NCBI GenBank assembly: GCA_029961745.1
Contig: CP124680.1
Location: forward strand, 4,526,001 to 4,590,000
Direction of reading: 5' to 3'
Length of the DNA stretch: 64,000 nucleotides
Source of the DNA: Nocardioides sp. L-11A
GTDB lineage: Bacteria; Actinomycetota; Actinomycetes; Propionibacteriales; Nocardioidaceae
The stretch's first letter is position 1, and each line of letters opens with the position of its first letter. Of the stretch, positions 4,310 to 11,704 are shown piece by piece. A program made the translations under genes and the position numbers. The notes under the pieces are model-generated. The model was given only the letters and a program-made list of their open reading frames with translations. It ran no database searches and was not told where the DNA came from.

Positions 4310-5116
4310 CCCGTCGCGGAACAGGGCGTTGAGGTCGGCACCGGCCGCGGATCCGTCGAATCCGTCGAAGCGCCCCTCGACGAGGGCGTCGGCGGCCCGC
4401 TCGAACCCGCCCCAGGCGGCGCGGGCGAGCGCGCCGCCCACGCTGACCCGGCGTACGCCGAGGTCGGCGATCTGCGTCAGCGTGAGCCGACTCGGGCCGC
4501 CGACGAGCAGGTTGACCGGCGTGGGCGCCACGGCCGCGACGACGGCCGCGATGTCCTCCGGCGCGCTGATGCCGGGCGCGTAGAGGCAGTCGGCCCCGGC
4601 GGCGGCGTAGGCGCGCAGCCGGTCGAGCACCTCGGCGAGGTCGGGCCGGCCGATGATGAAGCCCTCGGACCGTCCGACCAGCAGGACGTCGTGGCCACTG
4701 GCGTCGATGGCCTCCCGGGCGGCGGTGATGCGCTCGGTGGCCACGTCGAGGGCGTAGGGCTCGCCGTCGAGCGCGTCCTCCACCGACAGACCCGCGACAC
4801 CGGTCTCGACAGCGAGGGCCACGCTCACCGCGACCTCGGCCGCGGTGTCGCCATAGCCGTTCTCGAAGTCGGCGTTCACCGGCAGGCTCGTGGCACCGAC
4901 GATGTCGGCGAGGTGGTCGAGCGTCTCGTCGCGGGTCGCGGAGCCGTCGGGCCGGCCGCGGCTCCACGCCGCGCCGGAGCTGGTGGTCGCCAGCGCGGCG
5001 AAGCCCCGGTGCTCGAGATAGCGGGCGGACCCGCGGTCCCAGGGGTTGGGCAGCAGGAAGCAGCCGCGCTCGTGGAGAGCACGGAACGCGGCGCGGCGGT
5101 CGGCGATGCTCGTCAT
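4286..5116 (-). CDS. Isocitrate lyase/PEP mutase superfamily protein
   Basis: A 276-residue TIM-barrel protein of the isocitrate lyase/phosphoenolpyruvate mutase family. It shows FLLPNPWDRGSARYLEH, the metal-binding strand VNADFENGYG, VEDALDGEPY and RSEGFI, in the normal order and length for the short "oxaloacetate decarboxylase/PEP mutase-like" members. These enzymes make or break C-C or C-P bonds beside a carbonyl using Mg2+, but the substrate of this subgroup is uncertain. The ATG at 5116 is preceded by TACGGT 6 nt away on the minus strand (5123-5128), indicating a leaderless start. The longer frame upstream overlaps the YbjN gene and is excluded. Confidence 0.82.
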   Translation of the reverse strand: MTSIADRRAAFRALHERGCFLLPNPWDRGSARYLEHRGFAALATTSSGAAWSRGRPDGSATRDETLDHLADIVGATSLPVNADFENGYGDTAAEVAVSVALAVETGVAGLSVEDALDGEPYALDVATERITAAREAIDASGHDVLLVGRSEGFIIGRPDLAEVLDRLRAYAAAGADCLYAPGISAPEDIAAVVAAVAPTPVNLLVGGPSRLTLTQIADLGVRRVSVGGALARAAWGGFERAADALVEGRFDGFDGSAAGADLNALFRDGPEADQQR

Positions 5117-6929: not shown

Positions 6930-7017
6930 CGCACCTCCCGCTGTCTGAACCCATTGCCGGTCGATCGGTCAACCCTGCCAGTGTGCCCGGCATTCCCGAT
7001 CCACGAAGATGGGGTCC

Positions 7018-7758
7018 ATGAGCACCCGCATCGCCGTCGTCACCGGGGCGTCCAGCGGCATCGGCGCCGCCACCGCGCGCCATCTCGCCCGGGAGGGCTT
7101 CGAGGTCGTCTGCGCGGCCCGTCGCGCCGACCGGATCGAGGCGCTCGCCGCCGAGATCGGCGGCCGGGCGGTCGTGTGCGACGTCACCACGGAGGCGTCG
7201 GTCGCGACACTCGCCGCCGCGGTCGGGCCGCGCCTCGACGTCCTGGTCAACAACGCCGGCGGCGCCTTCGGGCTCGCGCCCGTGGCCGAGGCGGACGCCG
7301 ACGAGTGGCGCCGGATGTACGACGTCAACGTGCTCGGCCTGATGCGCGTCACCCAGGCGCTGTTGCCCGCCCTGGTCGCGAGCGGAGCGGGCGTCATCGT
7401 CAACGTCGGCTCGATCGCGGGACGGGGCGCCTACGAGGGCGGCGCCGGCTACACGGCCGCCAAGCACGGCACCAAGGTCGTCACCGAGACGCTGCGCCTG
7501 GAGCTCTTCGACCAGCCGGTGCGGGTGTGCGAGGTGGCACCGGGACTGGTGCGCACCGAGGAGTTCTCGCTCACCCGCTTCGGGGGAGATCAGGCGCGCG
7601 CGGACGCGGTCTATGCGGGGGTCCCCGACCCGCTGGTGGCCGACGACGTGGCCGACGCCATCACCTGGGTTGCCACCCGCCCGGCGCACGTCAACATCGA
7701 CGAGCTGGTGATCAAGCCCCGCGCCCAGGCCGCGACCCACAAGGTGCACCGGGTCTGA
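7018..7758 (+). CDS. Short-chain dehydrogenase/reductase (YdfG-like)
   Basis: A classical SDR of 246 residues with the Rossmann glycine motif TGASSGIG, NNAGG, catalytic Ser in NVGSIAG, and Tyr/Lys in YTAAKHG. The pattern matches NADP-dependent oxidoreductases acting on hydroxy acids such as L-allo-threonine or 3-hydroxypropionate. Two ATGs are in frame, 7009 and 7018. The second gives the usual MSTRIAVVTG start. It is divergent from mshA and convergent with the nucleotidyltransferase, so nothing nearby reveals its substrate. Confidence 0.85.
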   Translation: MSTRIAVVTGASSGIGAATARHLAREGFEVVCAARRADRIEALAAEIGGRAVVCDVTTEASVATLAAAVGPRLDVLVNNAGGAFGLAPVAEADADEWRRMYDVNVLGLMRVTQALLPALVASGAGVIVNVGSIAGRGAYEGGAGYTAAKHGTKVVTETLRLELFDQPVRVCEVAPGLVRTEEFSLTRFGGDQARADAVYAGVPDPLVADDVADAITWVATRPAHVNIDELVIKPRAQAATHKVHRV

Positions 7759-7790
7759 TCCGGGTCCGCGCCCGACCAGGACCGGTCCGG

Positions 7791-8894
7791 TCAGCGGCGC
7801 ACCAGGCGCTGGGCGCGCAGGGCGAAGGCGCGTGGCACGCCGCCCCAGGCGGTGGCCGAGCGGACCGGCAGCGCGGCGTGCGCCGGCAGCACGAGGCCGA
7901 CAGCGAGCTGCTGGAGATCGCGTGGCCTCCGCGTGGCGGTCAGCCCGTTGCGGAAGTCGCGAGCGGTGCTCGCGCCGCCCCAGGCCGCCACGGGCAGCCG
8001 ATGGCCGGCCCGAGCGCGGGCCACCACGGCCTCCGGCACCCGGTCCAGCGCGGCGAGCACCCACGCGGGCACCGTGTCCGGCAGTCCGACGGTCGCGCGG
8101 GCCGCGGCGAGCGAGGCGAGCGCGGGCGCCGGCAGCTCCTGCGCGAACACCTCCGGGTCGCGGGCCAGGCGGCGCAGGTCGACCAGGGTGCGCAGCCAGA
8201 TCCAACCCTCGCGATGTCCGGCCAGGTGACGGAGGGCATCGGCCGGGGCGAGGGTCGGCACCGCGACGCCGCCGACCTCGACCGTCGTACGGCGCGCCAG
8301 CAGCTCCGCCGGGTCCGGCTGGGCGCCCGGCATGGCGTCGAGCCGCCAGTGCAGGTCGACGTCGGCGCCGGCGCCCAGGTAGGTCAGCGTGTGGCCCCAG
8401 CGCAGGACGTGGCGCCAGGCCCACATGCCCGGCTCGATCCGGCAGTCCTCGTGCAGGGCCCATCCGGACGTGCTCAGCAGCCGGTGTGCGGCCGCGGCCG
8501 CCCCGGGGCGGACCAGCAGGTCGATGTCGCCCGCGCCGCGGGCGTCGGGCCGGCCCGTGGTGAGCACCGCCAAGGGGATGCCCTTGAACACCAGGGCCTC
8601 GATGCCGGCCGCGTCGAGGAGCTGCCAGGCGCGCACCGTCTCCAGGGTGTGCACCATTCGGCGCTGCCGCGCGCCCTCGACCATCGCGGCCAGCACCCGG
8701 GCGGTCCCGCCGGACAGGCCGAGCTCGTCCGCGTGGGCGCGGAGCAGCTCCGGCACCCGGTGGCGGCGTACCCCGTCCAGCAGGTCGCGCTCCGTCCCCG
8801 TCGGGACGCGCACCGGGACGACGGCGTGCCCCTCCTCGGCGGCGAGCGCGCTGCGCACCAGCCGGCAGAGCAGGTCGAGGACGTCGGCGCTCAC
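7791..8894 (-). CDS. RiPP-associated nucleotidyltransferase family protein (NTP_transf_5-like)
   Basis: A 367-residue protein of the uncharacterised nucleotidyltransferase family found beside lasso-type and HPr-kinase/PqqD peptide clusters. The central segment VFKGIPLAVL followed by GAGDIDLLV holds the nucleotidyltransferase Asp-x-Asp metal site (about residues 115-140). The rest is Ala/Leu-rich helix. It starts with GTG at 8894 and is divergent from the peptide precursor, sharing a 168-bp intergenic region with it. An obvious role is transfer of a nucleotide or similar group to the peptide or its phosphate, but this is inferred from neighbours. The converging SDR ends 32 bp away. Confidence 0.8.
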   Translation of the reverse strand: MSADVLDLLCRLVRSALAAEEGHAVVPVRVPTGTERDLLDGVRRHRVPELLRAHADELGLSGGTARVLAAMVEGARQRRMVHTLETVRAWQLLDAAGIEALVFKGIPLAVLTTGRPDARGAGDIDLLVRPGAAAAAHRLLSTSGWALHEDCRIEPGMWAWRHVLRWGHTLTYLGAGADVDLHWRLDAMPGAQPDPAELLARRTTVEVGGVAVPTLAPADALRHLAGHREGWIWLRTLVDLRRLARDPEVFAQELPAPALASLAAARATVGLPDTVPAWVLAALDRVPEAVVARARAGHRLPVAAWGGASTARDFRNGLTATRRPRDLQQLAVGLVLPAHAALPVRSATAWGGVPRAFALRAQRLVRR

Positions 8895-9062
8895 CGCGCG
8901 AGCGTGGCACGCGGCGGGCCCCGGCGTCGGAGGAACGGGAACGCCGGGAAGGTTAAAAATCGGGTGAAGCGGGGGCGAGGCCGTGTCCTGCGCGCGGGTA
9001 TCCGCGTTGCACCGTCGACGGAGGCACTCCCTCCTCTCCGTCCTGCACCCAATGGAGCTCCT
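8895..9062. promoter_or_regulatory. Shared intergenic control region of the peptide locus
   Basis: A 168-bp region between the divergent nucleotidyltransferase and the precursor gene. It contains a locally A/T-rich stretch (GGTTAAAAATCGG, about 8950-8962), unusual for this DNA and the likely promoter core. The precursor ribosome site GGAG is at 9054-9057. I could not fix -35/-10 pairs with confidence. Confidence 0.4.
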
Positions 9063-9164
9063 ATGAAGCTGACCTACGTCCCCCCGACCCTGGAGACCCT
9101 GAGCCTCACGGCGACCCAGGACATCGATATCGACATCGACATCACTCTCGGGCTCGGCAGCTGA
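9063..9164 (+). CDS. Lasso-leader-type RiPP precursor peptide, 33 residues
   Basis: A 33-residue peptide starting MKLTYVPPTLETLSL. Tyr5-x-x-Pro8-x-Leu10 is an exact match to the YxxPxL motif by which lasso leader peptides are bound by the PqqD-like B1 protein. Thr18 sits where lasso leaders carry the -2 Thr, which would put cleavage after Gln19 and leave a 14-residue core: four Asp-Ile repeats then TLGLGS. Ser33 is the last residue, the site phosphorylated by HPr-kinase-like lasso kinases of the PadeK/ThcoK type. A GGAG site is 5 nt upstream. Lasso ring formation would need a cyclase that is not encoded here. Confidence 0.8.
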   Translation: MKLTYVPPTLETLSLTATQDIDIDIDITLGLGS

Positions 9165-9187
9165 CCTCTGCGAGGTTCAGACTCGCC

Positions 9188-9610
9188 GTGGCCGCCGCGT
9201 GGTGCCTGCTGGGCGCCACCCGGCTGCTGACGGTCGTCCTGCCGTTCGGTGCGGTACGTCGCCTCCTCGGCGAGCCGGTCGCACCGGGCGGATCCGGGGC
9301 CCCGGCGCCTCCGGGTGCGAGCGCACGTCAGGTCGCGCGCGCCCGGGCGGTCGCACGGGTCGTCGGGCAGGCCGCCGGACGGACTCCCTGGACGTCCGAC
9401 TGCTACCCGCAGGCCCTGACCGCGCGCATCCTGCTGCGCGGCGCACGGGTGCCGCACACGGTGGTGTTCGGTCTGCGTCGGGATGACGCCGGCGAGCTGC
9501 GGGCCCACGCCTGGGTCACCGTCGGCCCCGCGGCCGGCGAGCCGGTCACCGTCACCGGTGGCTCCACCCGGGCCTGGACCCCCGTCGGGGCCTTCAGCTG
9601 GCAGCCCTGA
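9188..9610 (+). CDS. Lasso-type B2 leader peptidase (transglutaminase-like)
   Basis: A 140-residue protease of the lasso peptide biosynthesis B2 family (Transglut_core3), which cuts the leader from the precursor. The catalytic Cys is about residue 72 in SDCYPQALTARILL and the His about 107 in AHAWVTV, with the usual spacing. I see no clear Asp for the third catalytic position after the His. The N-terminal hydrophobic helix (AAAWCLLGATRLLTVVLPF) is typical. GTG start with GCGAGG upstream. It lies 23 bp after the precursor and 22 bp before the kinase, so it is in the same operon. Confidence 0.83.
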   Translation: MAAAWCLLGATRLLTVVLPFGAVRRLLGEPVAPGGSGAPAPPGASARQVARARAVARVVGQAAGRTPWTSDCYPQALTARILLRGARVPHTVVFGLRRDDAGELRAHAWVTVGPAAGEPVTVTGGSTRAWTPVGAFSWQP

Positions 9611-9632
9611 GCCTCCTCCCCTCCTCCCGACC

Positions 9633-10583
9633 ATGTACGCCGGCTACGGACTCCGCATCGACAGCGAGCTCCTGCTGCCCGAGCTGCCCCCTGCGCCCGG
9701 GCTCCCGGCACGGGCGGACGTCGTGGTGCGGCTGGGCCCCGTGCGCCCTCCGGCGCCGGACGCCCTCGCGCTCCCGCACGGCTTCTGGGCCGACGGCGAC
9801 CGGATCGGCCTCGACGTCCCCGAGGTCGGCCGCTACCTCTGCGAGCGGGGCACCCGGATCACCGTCGAGCCGGCGCCGGGCGCCTCGACCGACGCGCTGC
9901 GGCTGTTCCTCCTCGGCTCCGCGCTCGGCGTCCTGCTGACCCAGCGCGGCCTGCTCGTCCTGCACGGCAACGCCTTCGTCGTCGACGGCGCCTGCGCGGT
10001 CGTCCTCGGCCACTCCGGCGCCGGCAAGTCGACCCTGGCCGCCGAGATGCACCGCCGCGGGCATGTCGTCCTCAGCGACGACGTCGTACCGGTGGACGCG
10101 GCCGGGCGGGCCCTCCCCGGCTGGCCCCGGATCAAGCTCTGGCAGGACGCCCTCGACCGGCTCGGCCTGCCCTCGTCCGGGCTGGACCGGGTGGGCGCGG
10201 GCTTCGACAAGTACCACGTGCCGCTGGAGCGCGCCGCCGCGCCGGGGCCGGTGCCCGTCCAATGGATCTACGTCCTGGACAGGCACGAGGGCCCGCTGCG
10301 GGTCGTACCCGTCACGGGGGCTGCGGGCTTCGCCGTCCTGCACGAGCACAGCTACCGCAACGAGATCCTGGTCGGCGGGCTGCGGCGTACCCACCTGGCG
10401 CGCAGCGCCGCCCTGGCCCGGGTCGCCGGCCTCGCGCGCGTCGAGCGCCCGCGCGGCGTCGACTCGGTCGCGTCCTCGGCCGACGCGATCCTGGACCACA
10501 TCGCCCGGGCAGCCCGTCCGGGCCCCGTCATCCGAGAGGAGCAGCATGCGACCGGCACAGCGACCCGAACGGTGGGTGCGTGA
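9633..10583 (+). CDS. HPr kinase-like peptide kinase
   Basis: A 316-residue kinase of the HPr kinase/phosphorylase-related family found in RiPP clusters. The Walker A loop GHSGAGKST is at residues 126-134 and the acidic pair SDDVVPVD at about 148-155, corresponding to the HprK nucleotide and catalytic regions. The N-terminal YAGYGLRIDSELLLPELP is shared by these cluster kinases. Relatives in paeninodin-type clusters phosphorylate the C-terminal Ser of the precursor, and the precursor here ends in Ser. The ATG at 9633 lacks a good ribosome site, so translation may depend on the B2 gene. The end overlaps the next gene by 38 bp. Confidence 0.82.
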   Translation: MYAGYGLRIDSELLLPELPPAPGLPARADVVVRLGPVRPPAPDALALPHGFWADGDRIGLDVPEVGRYLCERGTRITVEPAPGASTDALRLFLLGSALGVLLTQRGLLVLHGNAFVVDGACAVVLGHSGAGKSTLAAEMHRRGHVVLSDDVVPVDAAGRALPGWPRIKLWQDALDRLGLPSSGLDRVGAGFDKYHVPLERAAAPGPVPVQWIYVLDRHEGPLRVVPVTGAAGFAVLHEHSYRNEILVGGLRRTHLARSAALARVAGLARVERPRGVDSVASSADAILDHIARAARPGPVIREEQHATGTATRTVGA

Positions 10584-10830
10584 CCCCGCCCTGCAGGCCG
10601 TGGAGATGGGCGAGGAGTTCGTGATGATGGGACTCGCCCAGGGCGAGTACTACGCGGTCAAGGGGGTCGCCGCGGCCCTGTGGCGCCACCTCGAGCAGCC
10701 GCGCGACCTCGGCGAGCTGTGTGCCCTCGTCGCCGCGGACTACGACGTCAGCGCCGAGGCCTGTCGCGACGACATCGTGGCCTTCCTCGACGAGCTGCGC
10801 GGCCGGCGGATGGTGCACACCGCGTCCTAG
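10546..10830 (+). CDS. PqqD-like RiPP recognition protein (lasso B1 type)
   Basis: A 94-residue PqqD-fold protein that would bind the precursor leader and present it to the protease and kinase. Visible features are the strand pattern VEMGEEFVMMGLAQGEYYAV, the signature GVAAALWRHLEQPRDL, and the helical DDIVAFLDELRGRRMV end. GAGAGGA (10534-10540) precedes the ATG by 5 nt. The start lies inside the kinase gene in another frame. It is the last gene of the precursor-B2-kinase-B1 operon and is followed by three successive hairpins. Confidence 0.85.
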   Translation: MRPAQRPERWVRDPALQAVEMGEEFVMMGLAQGEYYAVKGVAAALWRHLEQPRDLGELCALVAADYDVSAEACRDDIVAFLDELRGRRMVHTAS

Positions 10831-10874
10831 ACGAGTGATTCCCGGGTCTCGCACGCTCCGCGGGAATCGATCGT
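10831..10874. terminator. Hairpin terminator after the PqqD gene
   Basis: ACGAGTGATTCCCG (10831-10844) pairs with CGGGAATCGATCGT (10861-10874) at 12 of 14 positions around a 16-nt loop, directly after the PqqD stop. Confidence 0.6.
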
Positions 10875-10892
10875 CTCGCGGCGCGCCATTCC

Positions 10893-10910
10893 GGTCACAC
10901 TGGTCACACT
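10893..10910. repeat. Two tandem 9-bp repeats
   Basis: GGTCACACT occurs twice in direct succession, lying between the first and second hairpins of this intergenic region. No function is assigned. Confidence 0.6.
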
Positions 10911-10928
10911 GGACGGGCATTTCCTGCA

Positions 10929-10956
10929 CTTGTCGGGCGTTGCAACGCCCGACAAG
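10929..10956. repeat. Perfect 28-bp palindrome
   Basis: CTTGTCGGGCGTTG is followed immediately by its exact reverse complement. It sits between the convergent PqqD and racemase genes. It could act as a bidirectional terminator or a protein-binding palindrome. A loop-free 28-bp palindrome suits a dimeric protein or cruciform better than a simple RNA terminator. Confidence 0.75.
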
Positions 10957-10960
10957 CGCG

Positions 10961-10986
10961 GGAACAACCGGTCGACCGGTTGTTCC
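10961..10986. repeat. Perfect 26-bp palindrome
   Basis: GGAACAACCGGTC is followed directly by its exact reverse complement, 4 bp after the preceding 28-bp palindrome. The sequence TTCCTGCA flanks the pair on both sides (10921-10928 and 10983-10990). Confidence 0.75.
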
Positions 10987-11001
10987 TGCAGCCGGCCGGC
11001 C

Positions 11002-11691
11002 TCAGCCCAGCGCGCGGTCGAGCGCCGCGGCGACGTGCAGCGTGGTGCACGGGAAGACGGGGATCTCGGAGTCGGCCTGCCGGATGAGCAGCTCGAGCTC
11101 GGAGCAGCCGAGGATGACACCGCCGGCGCCGGCGTCCCACAGCTCGCTGATCATGCCGACGACGGCGCGGCGGGAGTCGTCGACGACCTTCCCGTGCACC
11201 AGCTCGTCGTAGATGATCCGGTTGAGCTCGTCGTGGTGGGCCGCGTCGGGGACCAGGACGCCGAGGCCGTGGCTCGCGATCCGGTCGGTGAAGAAGGTGC
11301 GCGACATCGCGAACTTCGTGCCGAGCAGGGCGACGTTCTCGACGCCCTCGGCCTTGCACGCCTCCGCGACGACGTCGCCGAGGTGCAGCAGCGGGATGGA
11401 GACGGCGTCCTGGACCTGCTCGGCGACCCGGTGGAAGGTCGTCGTGCAGAGCATGAGGAAGTCGGCGCCGGCCCGCTCGACGGACTGGGCGGCGGAGCGC
11501 AGGATGACCGCGACGCCGTCCCAGTCCTCGGCCTCCTGCAGCTCGGTGACCGTGGCGAAGTCGACCGACGCCATCACCGTCGCCGCCGAGTGGAGCCCGC
11601 CGAGCCGCTCCTCGACCCCACGGTTCAGCGCCTCGTAGTACGCCGCGCTGCTCTCCCAGGACATGCCGCCGACAAGGCCGATGGTCTGCAT
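11002..11691 (-). CDS. Aspartate/glutamate racemase family protein
   Basis: A 229-residue member of the Asp/Glu/hydantoin racemase superfamily, aspartate racemase branch. It starts MQTIGLVGGMSWESS and has both catalytic Cys regions: LMLCTTTFH (about residue 80) and GGVILGCSELELL (about 190). The family interconverts L- and D-Asp or Glu by a two-base cofactor-free mechanism, and some members racemise other amino acids. TAGACT lies 7 nt before the ATG (11699-11704), which settles the start and indicates a leaderless transcript. It converges on the peptide locus but is on the opposite strand with its own promoter, so a functional link is not supported. Confidence 0.87.
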   Translation of the reverse strand: MQTIGLVGGMSWESSAAYYEALNRGVEERLGGLHSAATVMASVDFATVTELQEAEDWDGVAVILRSAAQSVERAGADFLMLCTTTFHRVAEQVQDAVSIPLLHLGDVVAEACKAEGVENVALLGTKFAMSRTFFTDRIASHGLGVLVPDAAHHDELNRIIYDELVHGKVVDDSRRAVVGMISELWDAGAGGVILGCSELELLIRQADSEIPVFPCTTLHVAAALDRALG

Positions 11692-11698
11692 GGGGCCG

Positions 11699-11704
11699 AG
11701 TCTA
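11699..11704 (-). promoter_or_regulatory. -10 element of a leaderless promoter
   Basis: TAGACT on the minus strand, 7 nt upstream of the racemase ATG. Confidence 0.45.

Follow-up and report, generated by a model that had tools for sequence, protein, structure and literature searches.

What can a lasso-type gene set make when no cyclase gene accompanies it? The question is raised by a locus of Nocardioides sp. L-11A, in a stretch of 64,000 nucleotides that was analysed as a whole and is called the window here (positions 4526001–4590000 of a one-contig genome of 5,684,321 bases). Genes for a precursor peptide (A), a B2 leader peptidase, an HprK-like kinase (K) and a PqqD-like recognition protein (B1) form one tightly packed operon on the plus strand (window 9063–10830), and the gene for an NTP_transf_5 nucleotidyltransferase-like protein (NT) is divergent from it on the minus strand. 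An earlier reading of the DNA, referred to below as the original prediction, had named these five genes; all are located where it placed them and the profile scores agree. We consider it likely that they constitute a working pathway for a ribosomally synthesized and post-translationally modified peptide (RiPP), one that shares parts with the C-terminally phosphorylated lasso pathways, operates without the cyclase and the ring segment and would yield a linear phosphopeptide. The pathway probably descends from those lasso pathways.

The cyclase is absent from the locus and its relatives

The original prediction held that there is no cyclase at the locus or elsewhere in the window, and proposed a whole-genome search and a comparison of homologous loci. 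Both bear it out. PF00733 (Asn_synthase, the cyclase domain) gives no match in the whole 5,684,321-base genome; as a positive control, the same search gave matches in 11 of 14 control genomes. Orthologous loci were located by their kinase. Within the genus, 22 of 147 genomes matched, 15 of them strongly (E 3.4e-82 or better). A profile of 16 orthologues was then run against 294 genomes of the family at E 1e-15 and matched in 35, with 31 strong kinases (E 8.6e-98 or better) and four weak. The 31 include all 15 strong kinases of the genus search; 19 are from the genus and 12 from two other genera.

Thirty of the 31 loci keep the order NT / A-B2-K-B1 and have no cyclase, and NT is present in all 31. 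The exception, L181 (G638), has a kinase and B1, but no precursor was found there and the nearest B2 is on the opposite strand beside a second, weaker kinase. The kinase and B1 of L181 adjoin a frame that we take to be sulfotransferase-like, and a second, weaker set of kinase, B2 and NT is nearby. No PF00733 match occurs within the 9–18 kb fetched around the kinase in any of the 31 genomes, and 25 genomes, the window's included, have none at all. Of the six that do, three (G035, G590 and G610) show short partial matches, that of G035 reading like a QueC-type protein; the others are considered below.

This is not the situation for other B2-bearing or kinase-bearing genomes. PF00733 is present in all seven genomes of the same genus with a B2 outside this group (no more than 0.5 kb from B2 in five), and in the four weak-kinase genomes of the family sample a cyclase lies about 0.6 kb or less from the kinase. 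Across the phylum (396 genomes) 19 genomes have a kinase match at E 1e-8, with that of the window leading by a wide margin, and PF00733 is found somewhere in 16 of the 18 other kinase-bearing genomes, with none in G171 and G281. Three of the seven weak matches of the genus search (G081, G047 and G136) are also in genomes without PF00733; G081 has kinase fragments, and G047 and G136 are not among the 21 B2-bearing genomes. The weak-kinase genomes G047, G136, G171 and G281 count against a clean rule. For the group of 31, however, the absence of the cyclase is genuine and conserved, and the locus is therefore not a split lasso cluster; a cyclase in most orthologous loci, the finding named beforehand as fatal to the prediction, was looked for and did not appear.

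Of 7997 candidates scored in a protein database, 1562 are at E 1e-20 or better, and those with names among the 120 listed are mostly from Nocardioides and Marmoricola. In another search with the kinase, the named relatives come from Nocardioides and Pimelobacter, with one distant match in Sphingomonas.

Precursor and enzymes

The precursor gene (9063–9164, plus strand) encodes 33 residues, with leader MKLTYVPPTLETLSLTATQ and a 14-residue core, DIDIDIDITLGLGS. Counterparts were found in 30 of the 31 loci and comprise 25 distinct cores, on which the core statistics are based. All 30 conform to the leader consensus YxxPxL[ED]xLx[ILV]xxTx, so that YxxPxL and Thr(-2) are kept throughout; the putative cut site was placed by means of this threonine. 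All 30 end in serine (LGS, IGS, LIS or LLS), which is the sole Ser/Thr in 16 of the 25 distinct cores. For this reason a linear, C-terminally phosphorylated product, as originally predicted, still appears to be the best reading.

Core length ranges from 14 to 30 residues, and an alternating pattern persists through changes of length and residue. Adjacent residues switch between the aliphatic/aromatic class and the rest at 350 of 411 steps. Shuffled cores, with the last two residues held fixed, average 205 switches (s.d. 9.7) and none of 10000 shuffles attains 350, a figure that overstates independence because the cores are related by descent. Aliphatic or aromatic residues occupy 157 of 197 even positions and 28 of 214 odd positions.

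A lasso ring has as its signature Gly, Ala, Ser or Cys at core position 1 plus Asp or Glu at positions 7–9. Only three of the 25 distinct cores carry it complete; the window core has Asp at 1 and Asp at 7 and lacks it. The NCBI lasso leader model NF033521 does not match any of four family precursors tested, the window's included, in a search with a limit of E 10 and the HMMER filters on, which drop most matches above about 0.1. Two canonical lasso precursors from the genus and one cyclase-free precursor of the family f18 described below do pass its cut-off. The description of the precursor as having a lasso leader is thus right as to the YxxPxL motif and Thr(-2) but not as to the leader model. 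Among lasso features, the window locus possesses B1, as RiPP recognition element (RRE), and B2; it lacks the cyclase, an NF033521 leader and the ring signature. The cyclase-free peptides may be read as lasso tails without the ring.

The kinase (9633–10583, plus strand) scores 32.0 bits with Hpr_kinase_C, slightly below the cut-off of 33.3. Its structure model has a mean pLDDT of 87.3, and 49 of the 50 structure matches listed (of 260) are PEPCK/HprK, the remaining one being a chain of a respiratory supercomplex; a profile search of the PDB ranked an HPr kinase first. His111, Lys132, Asp149 and Asp150 are invariant in all 31 orthologues. By eye, without alignment to those kinases, they match the His-Lys-Asp-Asp motif of PadeK/ThcoK/BsfK-type lasso kinases (PMC9266682, PMC10368454).

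B2 (9188–9610, plus strand, start codon uncertain) is a transglutaminase-like cysteine protease with 68.5 bits for NF033537 (cut-off 33) and 71.1 bits for PF13471, and is the single match to the lasso B2 model in the whole genome. Cys72 and His107 are invariant in 16 of 16 aligned proteins. A strict regular expression matches 18 of the 31 loci; L168 and L171–L182 are unmatched. The third residue of the catalytic triad is Asp in lasso B2 proteins. The corresponding position here seems to be Gly, as it does, by reading, in B2 of G044 and G254, both with a PF00733 gene in the same cluster. The B2 dN/dS (ratio of nonsynonymous to synonymous substitution rates; 0.59) and the B2 rows of the 31-locus residue check were set aside, since pieces of neighbouring frames are present in the alignments. 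A PDB profile search with B2 gave no match.

B1 (10546–10830, plus strand) overlaps the 3' end of K and scores 65.1 bits with PF05402. In the numbering of the aligned stretch, Asp71 and Phe75 are invariant in all 31 proteins. They are four residues apart, as are Asp70 and Phe74 of LppB, which grip the leader Tyr and Pro (PMC13381572); the match is one of spacing alone. NT (7791–8894, minus strand) scores 113.1 bits with PF14907 (cut-off 31.2). Lys104, Gly122, Asp123 and Asp125 are invariant in 13 aligned proteins, and the G-D-I-D motif is kept, with both Asp residues in at least 30 of the 31. For K, B1 and NT, dN/dS is 0.27–0.33 over 11 of the loci.

The proposed pathway and its alternatives

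In the pathway that we propose, B1 would bind the YxxPxL leader and present the precursor, and K would phosphorylate the invariant C-terminal Ser, perhaps several times. Cleavage by B2 on the C-terminal side of Thr(-2)-Gln would free the 14-residue core, whose phosphate may then receive a sugar or nucleotide cap from NT. The predicted product is a linear, acidic, strictly alternating and β-strand-prone phosphopeptide. At the sister loci an MsbA-like ABC exporter would carry it; the clade of the window has no exporter at the locus.

Eighteen of the 31 loci share one site, between mshA-like/SDR (short-chain dehydrogenase/reductase) genes and a racemase gene; the others are elsewhere. Fourteen were placed there gene by gene and L167–L170 by flank matches to L168. 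The MsbA-like ABC exporter frame follows NT in 12 loci, none of them at the racemase site. Four of these frames were checked with Pfam, and ABC_tran is over its cut-off in all four and ABC_membrane in two. The best match of the window genome to a sister-locus exporter has 37% identity over part of the length, compared with 56% and 63% for the positive controls.

Precedents exist for several of the steps. The LPP system (Paenibacillus alginolyticus lpp, Nat Commun 2026) comprises a precursor, RRE, HprK-like kinase, NTP transferase, MsbA-like exporter and SipW-like peptidase; it has no cyclase and makes linear phosphopeptides with the phosphates on core Ser3 (PMC13381572). A kinase/RRE/NTP-transferase set can thus make linear phosphopeptides without a cyclase. 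The window locus resembles LPP in its discrete RRE, HprK-like kinase, NTP transferase, YxxP leader motif and lack of a cyclase, and 12 of the 31 relatives, though not the window locus, share the MsbA-like exporter; these 12 therefore have the core set of the LPP family, but with B2 as the protease. The window locus uses the lasso B2 cysteine protease, whereas LPP has an archaeal-type (SipW-like) signal peptidase; among the genes scanned at 7009–11700 there is no signal peptidase, the rest of the genome not having been searched for one. None of the 30 window-group leaders conforms to the LPP leader motif YxxPxVLxHQxIxFETxxS (PMC13381572). Their cores are short, alternating and Ser-terminated, unlike LPP with its phosphates at Ser3, and the group is in Nocardioidaceae, whereas LPP and paeninodins are stated to be restricted to Bacillota (PMC13381572).

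The phosphorylated lasso peptides provide the other comparison. PadeK, ThcoK, SyanK and PsmK phosphorylate a C-terminal Ser, and the addition of a hexose to pseudomycoidin has been linked to PsmN, an NTP-transferase homologue (PMC9266682). The paeninodin and pseudomycoidin systems have B1, B2, an HprK-like kinase and a C-terminal Ser acceptor in common with the window locus, and pseudomycoidin also the NTP-transferase homologue, but they possess the C cyclase and a lasso ring, both absent here. By these features the window locus is neither LPP nor lasso, yet it would work like LPP. The idea, put forward as a candidate for an undescribed pathway, is accordingly not wholly new, because LPP is already known from Bacillota (PMC13381572); what does stand is the variant with B2 in place of the SipW-like peptidase. 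Among the matches listed in a search of the titles and abstract openings of open-access literature, none deals with a B2 cluster of Nocardioidaceae that lacks a cyclase.

Several observations weigh against a linear phosphopeptide pathway. Neither a product nor a transcript or mass has been observed. Asp or Glu is present at positions 7–9 in 14 of the 25 distinct cores, the window core included, and Gly at position 1 in four, three of which also have Asp or Glu at 7–9; cyclisation in trans is thus formally possible. An Asn-synthase-type frame is found away from the locus in three of the 31 genomes: G042 has a weak PF00733 match in a 666-residue frame about 90 kb off on the same contig, and G695 and G638 have PF00733 genes on contigs other than that of the locus. 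A close relative of the exporter is missing from 17 of the 18 genomes with the common site, which is unusual for a secreted RiPP. G081 keeps kinase fragments only, between racemase and mshA, so the cluster can be lost. For the core alone, a dN/dS of about 1.07 was obtained from 14 codons, in which substitutions of both kinds are very scarce. Lastly, the long-branch kinase of L138 (G440) falls inside the branch of the 31 strong kinases and its placement is unsure.

Some of these points would suit an ordinary lasso cluster with its cyclase elsewhere in the genome or acting in trans, as would B1, B2, the kinase, NT and the C-terminal G-x-S, all common to cyclase-bearing clusters, and the distant Asn-synthase genes of G042, G695 and G638. 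We judge this very improbable and, for the window genome, reject it on the whole-genome PF00733 search; 25 of the 31 orthologue genomes have no such gene and the ring signature is complete in just three distinct cores. A decayed, functionless remnant of a lasso cluster would account for the loss of one core enzyme and for the solitary kinase fragments of G081. Against it, 30 of 31 loci are complete, the catalytic residues are invariant in 31 of 31 kinases, K, B1 and NT have a dN/dS of about 0.3 in 11 loci and the core pattern is retained although length varies from 14 to 30 residues. Conservation over the 31 loci, together with the dN/dS values, leads us to reject a dead remnant, to which we allow hardly any probability. 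Because the arrangement is kept by related soil bacteria, a real, little-known peptide pathway is indicated rather than a broken one.

That the locus is a bona fide member of the LPP family is improbable, if slightly less so. The kinase type, discrete RRE, NTP transferase and lack of a cyclase are the same, and the exporter is beside NT in 12 of 31 loci, but B2 replaces the SipW-like peptidase, the leader is without the LPP motif, the likely phosphosite is the C-terminal Ser instead of core Ser3 and the authors restrict the family to Bacillota (PMC13381572). One can also envisage a regulatory switch, in which the peptide is retained intracellularly and its phosphorylation reports on the metabolic state, like the action of HprK on HPr. 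The fixed chromosomal site would fit, as would the 18 same-site loci with no exporter beside NT and the lack of a close relative in 17 of those genomes; however, NT is paired with an ABC exporter in 12 loci of the same kinase group and the leader peptidase is retained in 30 of 31 loci, and we regard a switch as most unlikely.

We prefer, then, the linear phosphopeptide pathway. Beyond it, we tentatively raise the possibility, about which we are ourselves doubtful, that these loci represent a separate RiPP class of linear, end-phosphorylated and perhaps sugar- or nucleotide-capped β-strand peptides. The cores, of the form (polar-aliphatic)n and ending in G-x-S, would form amphipathic sheets in or at the cell; lasso machinery would serve again with no cyclisation, and in the clade of the window the set would be a vertically inherited, exporter-free chromosomal trait, not a mobile antibiotic cluster. 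Our guess is that the peptide might be an envelope-associated, sheet-forming acidic phosphopeptide.

On the linear phosphopeptide reading, cyclase-free phosphopeptide pathways would not be confined to Bacillota and could use the true lasso protease B2. Both points suggest that the lasso machinery may be a general module for leader recognition and phosphorylation. With a 33-residue substrate, an RRE, kinase, protease and NT, the locus offers a small system in which to study the role of NTP_transf_5 proteins without the lasso fold. Such loci would escape any search that demands a cyclase or a match to NF033521.

Genomic site, related lineages and upstream elements

A link between the peptide and the genes flanking the common site, namely the racemase (11002–11700), SDR and mshA-like genes, was considered, for example in the form of an epimerised peptide, and rejected. 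The racemase is widespread: 134 of 145 genomes of the genus match it at E 1e-60 or better, and mshA and/or SDR are close by in all but one of 16 cluster-free loci; these 16 come from 30 fetched loci, the closest racemases of the 134 genomes. The layout of the cluster-free site and the kinase fragments of G081 fit gain of the cluster at the common site and later loss.

In the kinase tree, all 31 strong kinases group on the same side of a branch supported at 100/99. Of the other kinases, that of G254 comes nearest in score (194 bits); its cluster runs B2, ABC exporter, NT, K, B1, and next to B1 is an Asn-synthase gene in convergent orientation. Eight further kinase clusters of the family (G001, G077, G091, G129, G584, G633, G639 and G682) share the HprK-like kinase but differ from the window locus in having a cyclase within about 1 kb of it. 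Four of their kinases are in the tree, outside the branch of 31, and the other four score far lower. Candidate precursors were found by motif in five of the eight, four with a Y-type and one with a W-type leader, and all five end in Ser after a G-rich tail. With cut sites placed by inference, the tails include GLGLGS, YDIDIPYGTGS (L123), HIVIPYGNGS (L119) and ITIDIPYGTAS (L230). Two precursors of these clusters were tested and match NF033521. At L227 (G584), positions 5007–5108, the candidate precursor is very short, with a W-type leader and core GTGLVPEGLGLGS, and there is a cyclase in the cluster; this precursor may be transitional between peptides with and without the ring. In G695 a relative of the sister-locus exporter (49% identity) is located on another contig than the locus, beside the Asn-synthase gene.

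Family f18 of the same phylum (L127, L128 and L130 in G233, G265 and G341) has the order B1-B2-A-K-NT without a local cyclase. An ABC exporter follows NT in both loci checked, L127 (G233) and L130 (G341), and an O-antigen ligase gene is near L127. PF00733 matches in these genomes are weak; G341 has an Asn-synthase-like gene 2.7 Mb away. The f18 precursors are rich in proline and glycine and are not Ser-final, unlike those of the window group, and the f18 kinases group on a supported branch of their own, near the cyclase-bearing G172. From this separate branch we infer that cyclase-free sets of the B1/B2/kinase/NT type probably arose more than once.

Two further loci combine some of these genes. 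At L120 (G025), B1 and B2 are beside DUF4395, thioredoxin, rhodanese and NTP_transf_5 genes. No kinase was found there and no cyclase adjoins, which makes this another context of B2 without C. At L136, in the draft genome G281, B1, kinase and NT are together; the genome has no PF00733 match, and no B2 was found nearby. For G116 and G400 the contigs concerned measure about 4 and 3 kb.

Two elements precede the precursor gene on the plus strand. The block GGTTAAAAA (8951–8959) is mostly conserved in an alignment of the 18 same-site upstream regions and is possibly a promoter element. A hairpin in the 5' untranslated region (9017–9042; arms 9017–9023 and 9036–9042) ends 20 nucleotides before the precursor ATG; its arms are GACGGAG and CTCCGTC and its loop is pyrimidine-rich. 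It is present in 16 of the 18 same-site loci, with all seven pairs in 13, and in one locus a pair is altered on both sides. The loop contains CUCC, which could pair with the Shine–Dalgarno GGAG, and the hairpin is perhaps a translation switch.

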